This document shows, piece after piece, positions 40,650 to 46,177 of a stretch of 64,000 nucleotides of DNA; position 1 is the first letter of the stretch; every line of letters begins with the position of its first letter. The DNA lies in assembly GCA_011525625.1 (NCBI GenBank), contig WYAX01000020.1:1-64000 (forward strand). Direction: 5' to 3'. The notes below the pieces were generated by a model that saw only the letters and a program-made list of their open reading frames with translations, had not been told where the DNA came from and made no database searches. This stretch comes from Nitrospira defluvii (GTDB taxonomy: Bacteria; Nitrospirota; Nitrospiria; Nitrospirales; Nitrospiraceae). Made by a program: the position numbers and the translations under genes.

Positions 40650-41059
40650 AACCCGACAGTCCAGTCATGAGCTCAGGACGCAGCACACATCGAGCACTGA
40701 TCTGAACCTCTGGGCCATCCCTTTCGCCCCAACCACCCAATCCCCCCAGCTCCTGCTCTCCTCACATCAGCCGTTTCACCGAAGACCTTCGTCCTCGCAC
40801 AAGAACGTGAATCGCTGACATTGGGCTGCTCCATTTTACGTAGATAAACGGCCCTACTGCACTAGGGCCCAATTCCATTGCCAAATGTCAATCATCTCTA
40901 ACCGCCGGCGCGACCTTGGTGGTATCATGCCAGTCTCGTGGGCTCATGCGGCGTCGTGAAGACTGGCGTTGGGCGCCCGATGAGCAACCGGCGTGGTACC
41001 TCTGGGGATCACCGGAGTGTCAAGCCCCAGGCCATACCACACAGACGAAGGAGCCAGCT
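40650..41059 (+). other. Intergenic leader before the histidine kinase gene
   Basis: About 410 bp without a convincing gene. It holds a hairpin at 40850-40869. A reading frame runs through its right end into the kinase, but the first good ribosome site is AAGGAG at 41048, so I treat the preceding codons as untranslated. Confidence 0.45.
40850..40869 (+). terminator. Hairpin after tRNA-Leu, possible terminator
   Basis: GGCCCTA (40850-40856) pairs with TAGGGCC (40863-40869) around a 6-nt loop. The following bases (CAATTCCATT) are only weakly T-rich, so termination is uncertain. Confidence 0.35.
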
Positions 41060-42652
41060 GTGAGTGCCGAAGACCTGCCCGCGACGTTTCCGTACATCGG
41101 AGATTCTCCTTTGCTTGAAGCCTTGATCCAAACCCTCGCCAACCAAGCCTCAGTCGGCATCTTTCTCGCGGACGCCCAGGGTCAGACGCTGTATGTGAAC
41201 GAGCGACTACGCCGCATCGCCGGCCTGCCCGGCCCACCAGACGCAGGAACCTGCTGGTTGAACGCCCTCGTCCCGGAAGACCAGGACCTCATTGCCACCG
41301 AATGGGCCGCGGCCATCGCGCAGGATCGAAGTTTCTCGCGTGAGTTTCGCTTTCAACGGCCCGACGGCTCTGTGCGCTGGGTGATGGCGGAAGCCTTCCC
41401 GCTTCGCACCGGCGAGGAGCCTTCCCGCGGATATGCGGGTATGGTCCGCGATATCACCCCAAGGCAACTGGCCCTCGACGCCCTGCATGCCTGCGAAGAA
41501 CGATATCGAAGCCTGGCAACGCTTACCCCACACCCGGTCTTCGTATACGCCGACGAGACCCTGCTGTTCATGAATCAGGCGGGCGCGAAACTGTTCACCC
41601 TCCCGGCGACACCCCCGCTCGAAGGCCGTGCGTTGTCAGACTGTTTCGCCCAGGAGTTCCTCCAGGATCTCCCATTGTCTCCCCCCGCTGCTCCGGTTGA
41701 GCGGCAATGCACGCGACACGATGGAACCATCATCGACGTGGAACTGGTCGCAAGCCCCGTCCTGTTCGACGGCCATCCGGCCATTCAGGTACTGGCCACC
41801 GACCTCACCGAACAGAAGCAACTCGCGGCACAGGTGCGTCGCGCACAAAAAACGGCAGCCGTAGCCACACTGGCCGGGGGCATGGCCCATGAGTTCAATA
41901 ACTGCCTCACGGCCATCATGGGATTCTCCGACTTAGCCTTACCGCTCCTCGCCCCGGACAGTCGGGCCCATGGACATCTGCAACAGGTACTCCTCGCATC
42001 GAGACGGGCTCGGGACCTGGTCACGCAGATGCTCATGTTCGGCCGCCAGGCAGACGGGGCCAAGCAACCGGTCTCCCTGGATATCTTGCTCAAAGAAACA
42101 TTGCGGATGCTGAAAAACCGACTGCCAAGCGGCATCAGTCTCCGCGAGTGGATTCCCGGGGCCACACATCCGGTCTTTGCCGACCCGACCCAAGTCCATC
42201 AAGTCTGCGTCAAACTCCTCGCCCATGCTGAACGAGCGATGAGCGCGACCGGGGGGGTCCTAGAGGTGCGCCTGGACAATGTGGACTTGAGCAGCGTGAT
42301 GGATGGACATGAACTTCCTCTTCGGCCGGGTCAGTATGTACGCCTCACGGTCTCGGATACCGGCAATGATATGGGCGTAGCGGACCAGCTCCGGAAACTG
42401 GGCCCGCTCTTCGCGCACCTTCCCGCGGGAGCTCAGTCGGGAGCAGAACTCGGAACCGCGCAGCAGATTGTCAGCGAACAAGGAGGGACACTTCGTGCCA
42501 CCAGTTCAGTCGGTCACGGCACCACGATCGAAGTCTACCTGCCGGCTATGATTCCTCCCGGCACGGTCGTCGCGGCCGAACCGGACCGAAACAAAGCCCC
42601 ACAGCTCACGGAACAGAGGGAATCTCTTGCTGAGCGCGACAAAGAACGATAG
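41060..42652 (+). CDS. PAS histidine kinase-like protein with degenerate ATPase domain
   Basis: A 530-residue soluble protein. Two PAS domains (about 15-145, with GIFLADAQGQTLYVNERLRR, and about 150-255) precede a HisKA-type helix with the phospho-acceptor His in GGMAHEFNNCLTAIMGF (His 277). The ATPase domain is recognisable by its frame but key residues are changed: the N-box reads KLLAHAERAM instead of NLxxNAxxAM, G1 reads DTGND instead of DTGxG, and the G2 lid reads GAELGT instead of GTGLGL. ATP binding is therefore doubtful. GTG 41060 is chosen because AAGGAG lies 6 bp upstream. A stand-alone receiver gene follows after about 107 bp. Confidence 0.85.
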   Translation: MSAEDLPATFPYIGDSPLLEALIQTLANQASVGIFLADAQGQTLYVNERLRRIAGLPGPPDAGTCWLNALVPEDQDLIATEWAAAIAQDRSFSREFRFQRPDGSVRWVMAEAFPLRTGEEPSRGYAGMVRDITPRQLALDALHACEERYRSLATLTPHPVFVYADETLLFMNQAGAKLFTLPATPPLEGRALSDCFAQEFLQDLPLSPPAAPVERQCTRHDGTIIDVELVASPVLFDGHPAIQVLATDLTEQKQLAAQVRRAQKTAAVATLAGGMAHEFNNCLTAIMGFSDLALPLLAPDSRAHGHLQQVLLASRRARDLVTQMLMFGRQADGAKQPVSLDILLKETLRMLKNRLPSGISLREWIPGATHPVFADPTQVHQVCVKLLAHAERAMSATGGVLEVRLDNVDLSSVMDGHELPLRPGQYVRLTVSDTGNDMGVADQLRKLGPLFAHLPAGAQSGAELGTAQQIVSEQGGTLRATSSVGHGTTIEVYLPAMIPPGTVVAAEPDRNKAPQLTEQRESLAERDKER

Positions 42653-42759: not shown

Positions 42760-43131
42760 ATGCCATCGGTCTTGATTGTCGACGACGAAGAAGCGATTCG
42801 CCAGCTCATCCGCAACACGCTGGAACAGGCGGGGTATCAGGTTCAAGAAGCAGCGAATGGAAAACAGGGCTTATCGCAATACCGCGAGTCGCCTGCGGAT
42901 CTCGTGATTATGGATATTCTCATGCCGGATCAAGACGGCTTGGAAAGCATTCTGACCTTACGTCGTGAATTCCCGAATGCGAAGATCATGGCCATCACCG
43001 GCGGTAGCGACATGATCGGCATTTTAAACTTCCTGGATGTGGCCCGTATGCTCGGCGCCCGCCGTACGCTCCAGAAGCCCTTCGAAATGCAGCAGCTACT
43101 GGACGCCGTTCAAACCGAGATTGCCGGCTGA
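42760..43131 (+). CDS. Single-domain response regulator (CheY-like)
   Basis: A 123-residue receiver domain without output domain. It has the acidic pair in VLIVDDEEAIRQLI, the phospho-acceptor Asp in DLVIMDILMPDQDG, Thr in IMAITGG and Lys in TLQKPFEM. It is next to the kinase-like protein at 41060 and may accept or donate phosphate to its His, or be phosphorylated by another kinase. Confidence 0.93.
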   Translation: MPSVLIVDDEEAIRQLIRNTLEQAGYQVQEAANGKQGLSQYRESPADLVIMDILMPDQDGLESILTLRREFPNAKIMAITGGSDMIGILNFLDVARMLGARRTLQKPFEMQQLLDAVQTEIAG

Positions 43132-43251: not shown

Positions 43252-43680
43252 ATGGCCTGGTGGACGCCTCAATTACACGCGGTGCTCGGCGGCATTGTCA
43301 TCGCCATCGGCATCGTCGTCATGTGGGAGCAAGCCGTTCTGCTCTGGGCACTGCTTGTCGGCACCATCGCCACCGCCTTTCTCCTCTGGAAGGGACGGAG
43401 CATCGGAACCGTCTGGGCATGGACCACCTTGGGACTCGGCGCGGAAAGCATGACATGGCCGATCGTGACCATGGTGCAGATGCGGATGGGAGGCAGTCAG
43501 CCGACCGAGGAACAGATGGGCGCCATCCTGAACGCTGTTATCTTCGGACTGTTCACCTCGGTCTTCTGGGTCACCTTCGCCTTCGGCCTCTTTAAGCGCC
43601 TCAAGGAGCAACAGACGCCCCCAGCCCCCGCGATAGCGTCCCCCCCGAACCGGAACAAAAAAAATCGGACACGGTCCTAA
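43252..43680 (+). CDS. Small membrane protein, unknown
   Basis: A 142-residue protein with about four hydrophobic segments: LHAVLGGIVIAIGIVVMW, AVLLWALLVGTIATAFLLW, VWAWTTLGLGAESMTWPIV and AVIFGLFTSVFWVTFAFGLF. The C-terminus is Pro-rich and basic. I do not recognise a family. ATG 43252 has GGAAGA upstream and begins just before the first segment. The stop lies 6 bp from the end of the convergent priA. Confidence 0.6.
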   Translation: MAWWTPQLHAVLGGIVIAIGIVVMWEQAVLLWALLVGTIATAFLLWKGRSIGTVWAWTTLGLGAESMTWPIVTMVQMRMGGSQPTEEQMGAILNAVIFGLFTSVFWVTFAFGLFKRLKEQQTPPAPAIASPPNRNKKNRTRS

Positions 43681-43686
43681 TCGGCA

Positions 43687-46050
43687 TCACGCCATCGAAA
43701 CCGGATCTACATCAATATCGAACCGGAGCCCACCCCGGCGCGACTCCCGCTCCAGCTCCTCACGAGTTCGCAAGACCGCAGCCGTTCCGACCTCGGACGC
43801 ATCGGATTTCACGAGGATCTGCCAACAGTATCGATTGCGGACCATGGCATGGGGCGCCGGGGAGGGGCCGAGAATGAAAGGCTGGCGCGACTCCCCCGCC
43901 ACACCGGCGGAGCCTCCTGGCCGGGACACGCCATGACCGCCACTGAGAGGTGCGCCCTGGGCAGAGAAGACTTGCCCTCGTAACAGCGCCACCCAGCGAT
44001 GAGCAGCCCGCGCCACCGCCGGCTCTGCTGTCCCGGACACATCCAACCGAATCAGTGATGTCCAGGGCGGATACTGGAGCAGTTGCCGAAAGGCCTGTTC
44101 TTGCGCCACGAACATTTCCTCATTCCCGGACGCAAGCGCCAGAATCGCGTGGTGATCGGGGAGCCGAGTCTGCACAAGTAGGCGGCCGCCGGCGGCCGCC
44201 GGAAGGGCCAAGGCAGCTGCATCCACCAGACCGTGATACATCCGTTCCGCTGAACGGAAATCAGGCACGTGCAATCCGGCATCGGCGTCCGGAACGGCCA
44301 CGAAGGCAGCCCTCGCCGGCAACGCCAACCGGAACAACATCTGGGTGCCGATCACGATATCGAGTTCGCCCGCATCCATCAGCCGGCTGACTGCCCGAGC
44401 GTCACCCGGTCGTCGGATCGTCTCGCCATCCACGCGCCCCACACGGGCCATGGGGAACATCCGCCGAACCGCCTCTTCGATCCGTTCCGTGCCGGCCCCA
44501 ACAGGTTCCAGTTTCAAGGATTGGCACCGAGGACACTGCTCCGGGACAGGCTTGGAGCGTCCGCAGTAGTGACACCGCACCTGGTTGCTGCGCCTGAAAA
44601 AGGTCAGTGCAACGCTGCACACATCGCATTGCGGGTTCACTCCGCAATCCGCGCAATGCAGCACACTCGCAAATCCTTTACGATTGAGAAACAGTATCGC
44701 CAACGATCGCCGCTGCAGAGCATCGCGAATCCCTTCGCACAAGTCCGGCGTGAGCACCGTTCCGGCAGAGGAGTCTCTGCCGTACGCCTTCAGGTCGATC
44801 ACCTGAATCTTGGGACCCTGTGTGGGGTTGCGGTACACACAGGCCATCATCAGGCCCTGCTGAACTGCCGCCCAACTTTCCAGCGAGGGATGGTTCGACG
44901 CCAGTACTAACACCGCGTTCTCGCGACGGGCCCGTTCGTGCGCGACCTCTCGAGCATGGTAACGCGGCACCTGTTCCTCCTTGAGGGACGTATCATCCTC
45001 TCCTTCCACCCACACCAGTCCGAGTCGGTCGATCGGAGCAAATGCGGCCATGCGGGTGCCGATCACGATCGTAGACGACGCCCCTCGGGCCTCATACCAC
45101 GCCGCCTCGCGCTCCTTCACAGGGAGGCTGCTGTGCAGGAGCGTCGCCTGCTCGCCGGCCGCCGCAAAGAGTCCGGCCAATCGATCGGCATTTTCGACGT
45201 CCCCCGTGATGACCAGAACTCGCCGACCGCGGCGAAGCGTGGCTTGCGCAGCCTGCACAAGACACCAGTGACGAGTAGCACGTTCCCCTTCAAGCAAAAG
45301 AGCCGCATACCCGTCCGCCGCCACCTGCTTGTCGATCATCATCAGCCACGACTGGGCTTCCGCCGGCGGGGGCGGTGAAGCCTCACCGGCTTCTCCAATC
45401 GGAAGGGCAGACGCCGTGGTTAGCGCATGTGCCTTTCCCCTGCGAGTCCGCTTCGGAGCGGCCGCCTCATCACGCTGCTCCACCAACCCGCGTTTGATCA
45501 GCGCCCGCAATGCCGGCATTGCACCGGACTTCTCGCCCCGCAGGAGCGTGCTCTCCATGATGCCGTTCGGACGTCGACGAAGCCGTGCAAGGAGCCGCAG
45601 CTCGGCCTCGCCCATCCCATCACGTGAGGAGGGCTCGGCCAGGCCTTGTGCCGTGAGCAGATATCGAGTGTGAGGCCGACGAGGCTGATCGACAGGTGGC
45701 AACACGAGTTTGATGCATTGCCCCCAAGGTGCGGCATATCGTTCCGCAACCCAGCGGCTCAATTCAACCTGAGCAGGTGTCAGCACATGGTCTCGAGAGG
45801 TCTCCCCGCACGAACGCAGCGATTTGAGTCCTGCCTCCGGTGCTCCTGACGGTGGCCGGTGATGAAGCGCAATGACCAGCCCTTGCAGATCCTGCGTCCC
45901 AAAGGGCACGAGCACAGACTGACCGATGACGATGCGTCCCCGGAGTTCCGCCGGGACAACATAGGTAAACGATCGGTGCAGTCGACGAGGCAACACCACA
46001 TCGACATAGCCGGGGAGAGGTGCAGCCGCCTGCACAGGTTGGTCTCGCAT
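43687..46050 (-). CDS. priA: Primosomal protein N' with degenerate helicase motifs
   Basis: PriA restarts replication at stalled forks by binding the fork and loading the primosome. The 787-residue protein has the N-terminal DNA-binding domain (YVDVVLPRRLHRSFTYVVP) and an intact Zn module (CADCGVNPQCDVC ... CHYCG ... CPRC). The helicase core is altered: the Walker A position reads LEGERATRHW (residues 253-262) with no GSGKT, Walker B reads VEGEDD in place of DEEHD, and the GSATPS motif reads ASNHPS. Other segments (GTRMAAFAPIDRLGLV, RYHAREVA) are kept. It is probably not an active ATPase. Start MRDQPVQ at 46050. Confidence 0.9.
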   Translation of the reverse strand: MRDQPVQAAAPLPGYVDVVLPRRLHRSFTYVVPAELRGRIVIGQSVLVPFGTQDLQGLVIALHHRPPSGAPEAGLKSLRSCGETSRDHVLTPAQVELSRWVAERYAAPWGQCIKLVLPPVDQPRRPHTRYLLTAQGLAEPSSRDGMGEAELRLLARLRRRPNGIMESTLLRGEKSGAMPALRALIKRGLVEQRDEAAAPKRTRRGKAHALTTASALPIGEAGEASPPPPAEAQSWLMMIDKQVAADGYAALLLEGERATRHWCLVQAAQATLRRGRRVLVITGDVENADRLAGLFAAAGEQATLLHSSLPVKEREAAWYEARGASSTIVIGTRMAAFAPIDRLGLVWVEGEDDTSLKEEQVPRYHAREVAHERARRENAVLVLASNHPSLESWAAVQQGLMMACVYRNPTQGPKIQVIDLKAYGRDSSAGTVLTPDLCEGIRDALQRRSLAILFLNRKGFASVLHCADCGVNPQCDVCSVALTFFRRSNQVRCHYCGRSKPVPEQCPRCQSLKLEPVGAGTERIEEAVRRMFPMARVGRVDGETIRRPGDARAVSRLMDAGELDIVIGTQMLFRLALPARAAFVAVPDADAGLHVPDFRSAERMYHGLVDAAALALPAAAGGRLLVQTRLPDHHAILALASGNEEMFVAQEQAFRQLLQYPPWTSLIRLDVSGTAEPAVARAAHRWVALLRGQVFSAQGAPLSGGHGVSRPGGSAGVAGESRQPFILGPSPAPHAMVRNRYCWQILVKSDASEVGTAAVLRTREELERESRRGGLRFDIDVDPVSMA

Positions 46051-46177
46051 GCGGCATTCTAACAACAGCGGACTGGAGCAACAATGACAGTCGACCAAGG
46101 AATCGGGTAGGGAGAGACAATGGGAAAGGACAACGCGGCGAGCGGCTTACATGAGGCAAGCCGGCCGCCGTTAGGGA

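Follow-up and report, generated by a model that had tools for sequence, protein, structure and literature searches.

A probable histidine pseudokinase with PAS sensor domains beside a nearly invariant receiver in Nitrospira

What can a histidine kinase homologue still do when it has kept its H-box histidine and lost the motifs by which such enzymes bind ATP? This question is raised by a gene of Nitrospira defluvii lying in contig WYAX01000020.1 (assembly GCA_011525625.1), in a stretch of 64,000 nucleotides that was analysed as a whole and is called here the window. The gene is located upstream of a gene encoding a single-domain receiver. Its features are as follows.

41060..42652, + strand: degenerate sensor histidine kinase of 530 amino acids, PAS-PAS-HisKA (DHp)-HATPase_c (CA), from the open reading frame, its translation, Pfam and start evidence
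41123..41473, + strand: first PAS domain (approximate limits), from Pfam PAS_9/PAS/PAS_4 and NCBIfam sensory_box, long-frame residues 70-186
41864..41926, + strand: H-box ATLAGGMAHEFNNCLTAIMGF, with His277 (codon 41888-41890), Glu278 and Asn281 (H+4)
42176..42241, + strand: degenerate N-box FADPTQVHQVCVKLLAHAERAM, with Lys385 and His389 where Asn is expected
42356..42373, + strand: degenerate G1 box DTGNDM, with Asp433 retained and Asp437 in place of the second Gly
42440..42457, + strand: degenerate G2 box or ATP lid, GAELGT

By descent the protein is a sensor kinase, as it matches both HisKA (31.2 bits for a cut-off of 26.9) and HATPase_c (36.9 bits for a cut-off of 26.4; E 5.6e-9, long-frame residues 423-544) in Pfam. 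The long frame of the gene opens with TTG at 40916, and the GTG at 41060 is supported as the start of the 530-residue protein by an AAGGAG found a few bases 5' of it and by the ortholog of locus L018, whose frame opens with PVSAQDL. With this start, the number 277 that the first-pass annotation had given to the histidine holds. That annotation had given its observation the range 42180-42480, which encodes the CA domain, the H-box being located upstream of it. Its reading of the motifs is the one found in the translation: the H-box GGMAHEFNN is intact, Lys (codon 42212-42214) and His (codon 42224-42226) stand in the N-box VKLLAHAERAM where NLxxNA is expected, G1 reads DTGND and the lid GAELGT. 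The second Asn of the N-box is a Mg ligand. Where an active kinase has the N-box Asn, DxGxG and a GxGxG lid, this protein has KLLAHA, DTGND and GAELGT, so that all three nucleotide motifs are changed, as had been claimed. The nucleotide site is not altered throughout, since D433, an Asp of the adenine pocket, is retained along with the GTTIEVYLP end. The protein shares with histidine phosphotransferases a DHp domain with an invariant His and an acidic neighbour, combined with a CA domain that is devoid of ATP motifs or, in relatives, missing; it also carries, with Asn281, the T or N found at H+4 in HisKA phosphatases. The chain stops after the CA domain and a tail of about 35 residues, with no C-terminal receiver domain of the CckA type.

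Is the loss peculiar to this gene? All 72 HATPase_c matches of the own genome were translated and their N-boxes read by eye. The second Asn is present in 71 of them, the window protein being the sole exception, and a genome-wide loss of the N-box is thereby rejected. Decay of any kinase placed at that location is also rejected, because the upstream neighbour, a HisKA_3 kinase, keeps its N-box Asn in 10/10 loci (those with a readable frame, a subset of all loci). These include G116 and G117, in which the CA domain of the second kinase is missing. Decay is thus a property of the degenerate kinase gene, and neither of the place nor of the genomes. In locus L070, the G1 Asp of the HisKA_3 kinase is replaced by Glu.

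The gene is present in 29/29 genomes of the window genus. Of the 19 loci obtained by scanning named genomes, 17 come from Nitrospira or uncultured Nitrospira (including Ca. N. defluvii), one comes from Nitrospiraceae/uncultured and one is a distant archaeal match. None of the 28 genus orthologs with a readable N-box has the second Asn, His, Arg or Gln standing in its place, which rejects a sequencing error or a private decay; 21 of these 28 have lost the first Asn as well, and Asp or Glu replaces the second Gly of G1 in 13 of 29 readable rows. In the H-box, H, E and N(+4) are retained in 28/28. Outside the genus, the motifs (NN, DxGxG, F-box and GMGL) are intact in the ortholog of the outgroup genus g9 (G039) and in ten g15 orthologs of that alignment set. 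It had been proposed that orthologs could have the same losses, and that intact ones would point to recent decay. The answer is mixed. The loss is shared throughout the genus, and intact N-boxes are found beyond it, in one g9 row and 19 of 56 g15 rows. Since no readable ortholog of the genus itself has one, the loss of the Asn is at least as old as the genus ancestor and is not a recent decay.

As for the order of events, three members of the genus (G016, G020 and G021) lack both N-box Asn, yet show canonical-looking G1, F and G2 boxes, which suggests that the N-box may have been lost first and the lid afterwards, an order on which the moderate support of the deepest forks in the genus comparison bears. 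Individual orthologs are also rearranged. In G008 (L084 8032), the ortholog is split, one frame encoding PAS1 and a second, overlapping one PAS2-DHp-CA, perhaps through gene fission. In G004 (L091), it is without the first PAS, truncated, 45% identical and devoid of the G1 Asp too, next to a receiver that is 88% identical. The frame of the ortholog is broken in G102.

A wider range of states is found at the same locus in the sister genus g15. The gene beside the receiver encodes there either (i) large hybrid kinases with intact motifs and a C-terminal receiver domain, (ii) shorter kinases with intact N-boxes, (iii) shorter kinases whose N-box Asn has become His, Ser, Asp or Gly, or (iv) proteins from which the CA domain and the following receiver domain are deleted, the chain stopping 83-87 residues past the His, or else (v) the kinase gene is absent beside the receiver. 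Among the 56 g15 rows used for the tree described below, 19 keep the second Asn, 19 have it replaced and 18 are without the whole CA domain, PAS domains and the DHp hairpin being left. The genes of the CA-less proteins retain a 23-base overlap with the start of the receiver gene, and in the three such proteins scanned with Pfam, each had PAS domains, a weak HisKA match below cut-off and no HATPase_c match. One g15 subgroup (L209 and L230-L234, from G101, G100, G098, G096, G095 and G099) has frames of 408-468 amino acids, with HEANN or HEVNN in the H-box and Asp in place of the second N-box Asn; the N347D change of EnvZ is reportedly of the same kind.

How many times the domain was affected was estimated on a tree made from the DHp and receiver parts (193 columns), with 85 rows, 28 from the window genus, one from g9 and 56 from g15. 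The second Asn is present in 20 rows, replaced by another residue in 47 and missing together with the domain in 18. Under parsimony, at least seven changes are required, a count that carries no direction and may shift, as 22 of the 81 inner branches are open. Because Asn is the rule in the superfamily, we infer that the direction is that of loss, and that ATPase function was probably lost repeatedly at one locus, by point change or by domain deletion. The HExNN motif is found in every readable adjacent gene, a result in which the choice of the g15 and g9 rows by an HE.NN pattern favours rows with the His. Among 85 loci scanned (a set different from the 85 tree rows), no adjacent kinase-like frame with a DHp domain but without the His was found, the frames devoid of the pattern being NarL-type receivers, other genes and pieces of broken or cut genes. 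Columns lying outside the selection pattern, namely T(+7), G(+11) and H(+29), are invariant in 85/85 rows. The last one is a second His, in DHp helix 2 (residue 306 of the 530-residue protein, 41975-41977 region). Several loci are outside the tree: G024 (gene cut by contig ends), G102 (broken frame), G109 and G130 (contig ends), G052 and G084 (CA-less, with receiver matches of 38% and 28%), G124 and G088 (matched, with a sequence outside the set, partial for G088), and those with no adjacent kinase frame (G121, G062, G063 and G080 of g15, and 18 loci of other genera). The locus set omits about 20 further genomes with a receiver match.

Could such a gene simply be decaying, its kinase activity having become useless, with selection relaxed and the gene leaving each lineage? 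The rearrangements point that way, with a split gene in G008, a broken one in G102, a truncated and very divergent one in G004 and none beside the receiver in several g15 genomes. They also count against the reading proposed below, as they indicate that the gene is not essential everywhere. However, the frame is open in most genomes, the loss is as old as the genus, and dN/dS stays far below 1 in almost every pair and domain, so that a decaying gene appears quite improbable to us. The dN of the H-box is zero in 11/11 ortholog pairs, and the dN/dS of the DHp domain ranges from 0.02 to 0.17 in ten pairs and is 0.50 in one. In the CA-less proteins, H, E, N and N of the DHp hairpin are retained in 19/19 distinct rows, and the dN/dS of the hairpin is at most 0.27 in 9 pairs. 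The degenerate kinase gene is under purifying selection, and so is the DHp part of the CA-less proteins. The CA domain has a dN/dS of 0.05-0.10 in the window's own clade (4 pairs), which still guards this domain despite the loss of its ATP motifs. In some pairs outside this clade the value is 0.35-0.79, the maximum being that of one genus pair, and relaxed constraint accounts for part of the signal there.

The receiver and the genes that follow it are listed below.

42760..43131, + strand: single-domain response regulator of 123 amino acids, Pfam Response_reg E 2.2e-27, with D8, D9, D52, T80 and K106 intact
43252..43680, + strand: small hydrophobic protein, from tblastn synteny, the ATG start being a judgement
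43687..46098, - strand: frame that we take, from its sequence type, to be a PriA-like helicase, used as a synteny marker (open reading frame, synteny)

The receiver gene lies 107 bases 3' of the degenerate kinase gene. Receiver orthologs were found in 129 of 175 family genomes (E <= 1e-42), D8, D9, D52 and K106 are kept in 85/85 rows and T80 in 84, and dN/dS is between 0 and 0.061. In most family loci examined, the receiver is followed by the small hydrophobic gene and then by PriA on the opposite strand. The small hydrophobic protein, for which Pfam gave no match, may be the output or the target of the receiver. As the receiver is also encountered with no adjacent kinase, in 18 loci of other genera and four of g15, it has, or can have, another source of phosphate. 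No partner kinase could be named from the NarL-type receiver found upstream in other genera, whose relatives in the own genome (contig C32) reach at most 49% identity. In two loci, L188 (G052) and L199 (G061), the receiver beside a CA-less protein is just 38% and 60% identical, and is possibly decayed or replaced.

What, then, could the protein do? The proposal that it is a pseudokinase is well supported, by losses that are genus-wide (28/28 readable orthologs), by purifying selection and by recurrent loss in g15 (the 18 tree rows without the domain). Since the Asn that holds Mg is gone and, in the window clade, the G1 and lid motifs as well, His277 should no longer be loaded from ATP. In CrdS, the N-box substitution N482K gives a kinase-deficient protein, and the same position is described as required for CA function in CckA and EnvZ (PMC3510030). 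The phosphate handled by a protein that would not load its His from ATP, yet retains this His, the acidic residue next to it and the Asn of phosphatases beside an intact receiver, most likely comes from elsewhere. We consider it probable that the window protein is a kinase-dead, PAS-gated DHp partner of the receiver, which handles phosphate independently of ATP through phosphoryl exchange. A kinase encoded elsewhere would phosphorylate the receiver; the DHp bundle of the two-PAS sensor, itself kinase-dead, would be its working part; and the PAS domains would gate the ATP-independent exchange of phosphoryl groups on the adjoining receiver.

The receiver is designated as the partner on account of its adjacency, which is no proof. 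An invariant His encoded next to an intact, extremely conserved receiver makes phosphotransfer between the two plausible; the sequence would fit a phosphatase, or a role without catalysis, almost as well. With regard to direction, phosphate might be taken off the phosphorylated receiver, by phosphatase activity or by reverse transfer via His277, a possibility that we put forward tentatively. A relay of phosphate between the adjoining receiver and another one, by analogy with ChpT and PhyT, seems to us slightly less likely. In CrdS, the T or N at H+4 is required for phosphatase activity only, and the Glu next to the His is needed for kinase activity only (PMC3510030). The conservation of Asn281 thus argues for a phosphatase. 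The Glu, dispensable for a pure phosphatase, is nevertheless retained in CA-less proteins; this is a point against our main reading and suggests that more than a phosphatase is guarded, for instance phosphotransfer through the His. At the level of the Nitrospira family, the chances seem to us a little short of even that a histidine kinase was converted at one locus, on at least seven occasions, into a phosphotransferase or phosphatase that is independent of ATP and gated by PAS domains. The route would be either the loss of the Asn that binds Mg or a clean removal of the ATPase domain, and the outcome a sensor-plus-DHp class whose sensory domain would itself gate the exchange of phosphoryl groups, through the His, with a nearly frozen receiver.

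The fold model bears on two other explanations. The full-length model was built from 17 sequences, and its low scores (mean pLDDT 68.3, below 50 for lid residues 437-461, and pTM 0.36) are the reason why only the order of the elements and the fold match are used. The element order predicted for the CA part is that of a Bergerat domain, and this part matches the CA domains of kinases, such as NtrB (Z 16.0, rmsd 2.6 over 131 residues), as well as chains of RetS (Z 15.6) and DivL (Z 14.3) among many active kinases; ChpT and Spo0B are absent among the 50 rows of the comparison, which excludes nothing. The nearest solved sequence is that of CckA (5IDJ), with an E value of 1.3e-17 over residues 309-544. 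One might thus imagine an unconventional active kinase that would bind ATP in another mode, via the predicted Bergerat fold and the retained Asp433, which is invariant in the alignment of 17 sequences. Such an enzyme is very hard to reconcile with an Asn replaced by residues as unrelated as His, Arg, Gln, Ser, Asp and Gly, a lid that varies freely and sister proteins that are without the whole domain, and we regard it as highly improbable.

The resemblance of the modelled CA part to RetS and DivL could instead point to a non-catalytic regulator of this kind, binding the receiver or pairing with an intact kinase, His277 being kept only as part of a docking helix. The purifying selection acting on a CA domain without ATP motifs in the window clade suggests a structural role, and a CA-less ChrS acts without needing its His (PMC9491836). 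However, H, E and N(+4) occur in every readable adjacent gene, the His standing where DivL has a Tyr (PMC4211667), and with 18 rows devoid of a CA domain, scaffolding by this domain cannot be shared across the family. A purely non-catalytic role appears unlikely to us, and the reading as a kinase-dead, PAS-gated DHp protein exchanging phosphate with the receiver is retained.

Phosphotransferases derived from kinases, and pseudokinases, are already known (ChpT, Spo0B, PhyT, DivL, ChrS). The apparent novelty lies in losses that recur at a single locus and of which all stages are found in living relatives, together with a PAS-DHp form without CA domain. Text searches of the open-licence literature listed no description of this locus, which is not a claim that none is in print. 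While ChpT and Spo0B are known as finished products, living relatives of the window protein display an intact kinase, a lost N-box, a lost lid, a deleted domain and an absent gene, so that the route from kinase to phosphotransferase or phosphatase, and the order of residue losses, become directly testable. The locus also bears on the wiring of a hardly changing receiver in nitrite-oxidising Nitrospira, organisms of the nitrogen cycle and of wastewater treatment.

CckA, an active kinase/phosphatase, has the same DHp-CA architecture, but its ATP motifs are intact and 5IDJ was crystallised with ADP/Mg. ChpT and Spo0B are not known to have sensor domains, whereas PAS domains precede the DHp domain here and the proteins of the sister genus may miss the CA domain entirely. 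Like the window protein, both have a DHp hairpin with the His kept and a CA-like domain that makes no use of ATP (PMC3433190 for ChpT; Spo0B as cited there and in PMC5898713). DivL of Caulobacter is also a PAS-bearing pseudo-histidine kinase acting on a single-domain receiver, and its ATP binding is reported as weak (PMC4211667); unlike its Tyr, the residue found here is an invariant His, His277 in the window protein. In ChrS_CA-fs of Corynebacterium glutamicum, loss of the CA domain also led to a new signalling effect dependent on DHp, but this is a laboratory-evolved frameshift in which the His is dispensable (PMC9491836), whereas the losses described here are natural, old and recurrent, with the His kept. 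PhyT (formerly PhyP) of Sphingomonas melonis likewise has a degenerate ATPase domain, keeps its His and is encoded in the locus of its receiver (PMC5898713). It differs by its anchoring in the membrane, its periplasmic sensor, its HRxxN motif and its link to PhyR of the general stress response, whereas the window protein looks cytosolic, has two PAS domains and HExNN, and is accompanied by a single-domain receiver. PhyT was first taken as a phosphatase and later found to be a phosphotransferase between receivers (PMC5898713), a history that warns against choosing too early between these two activities.
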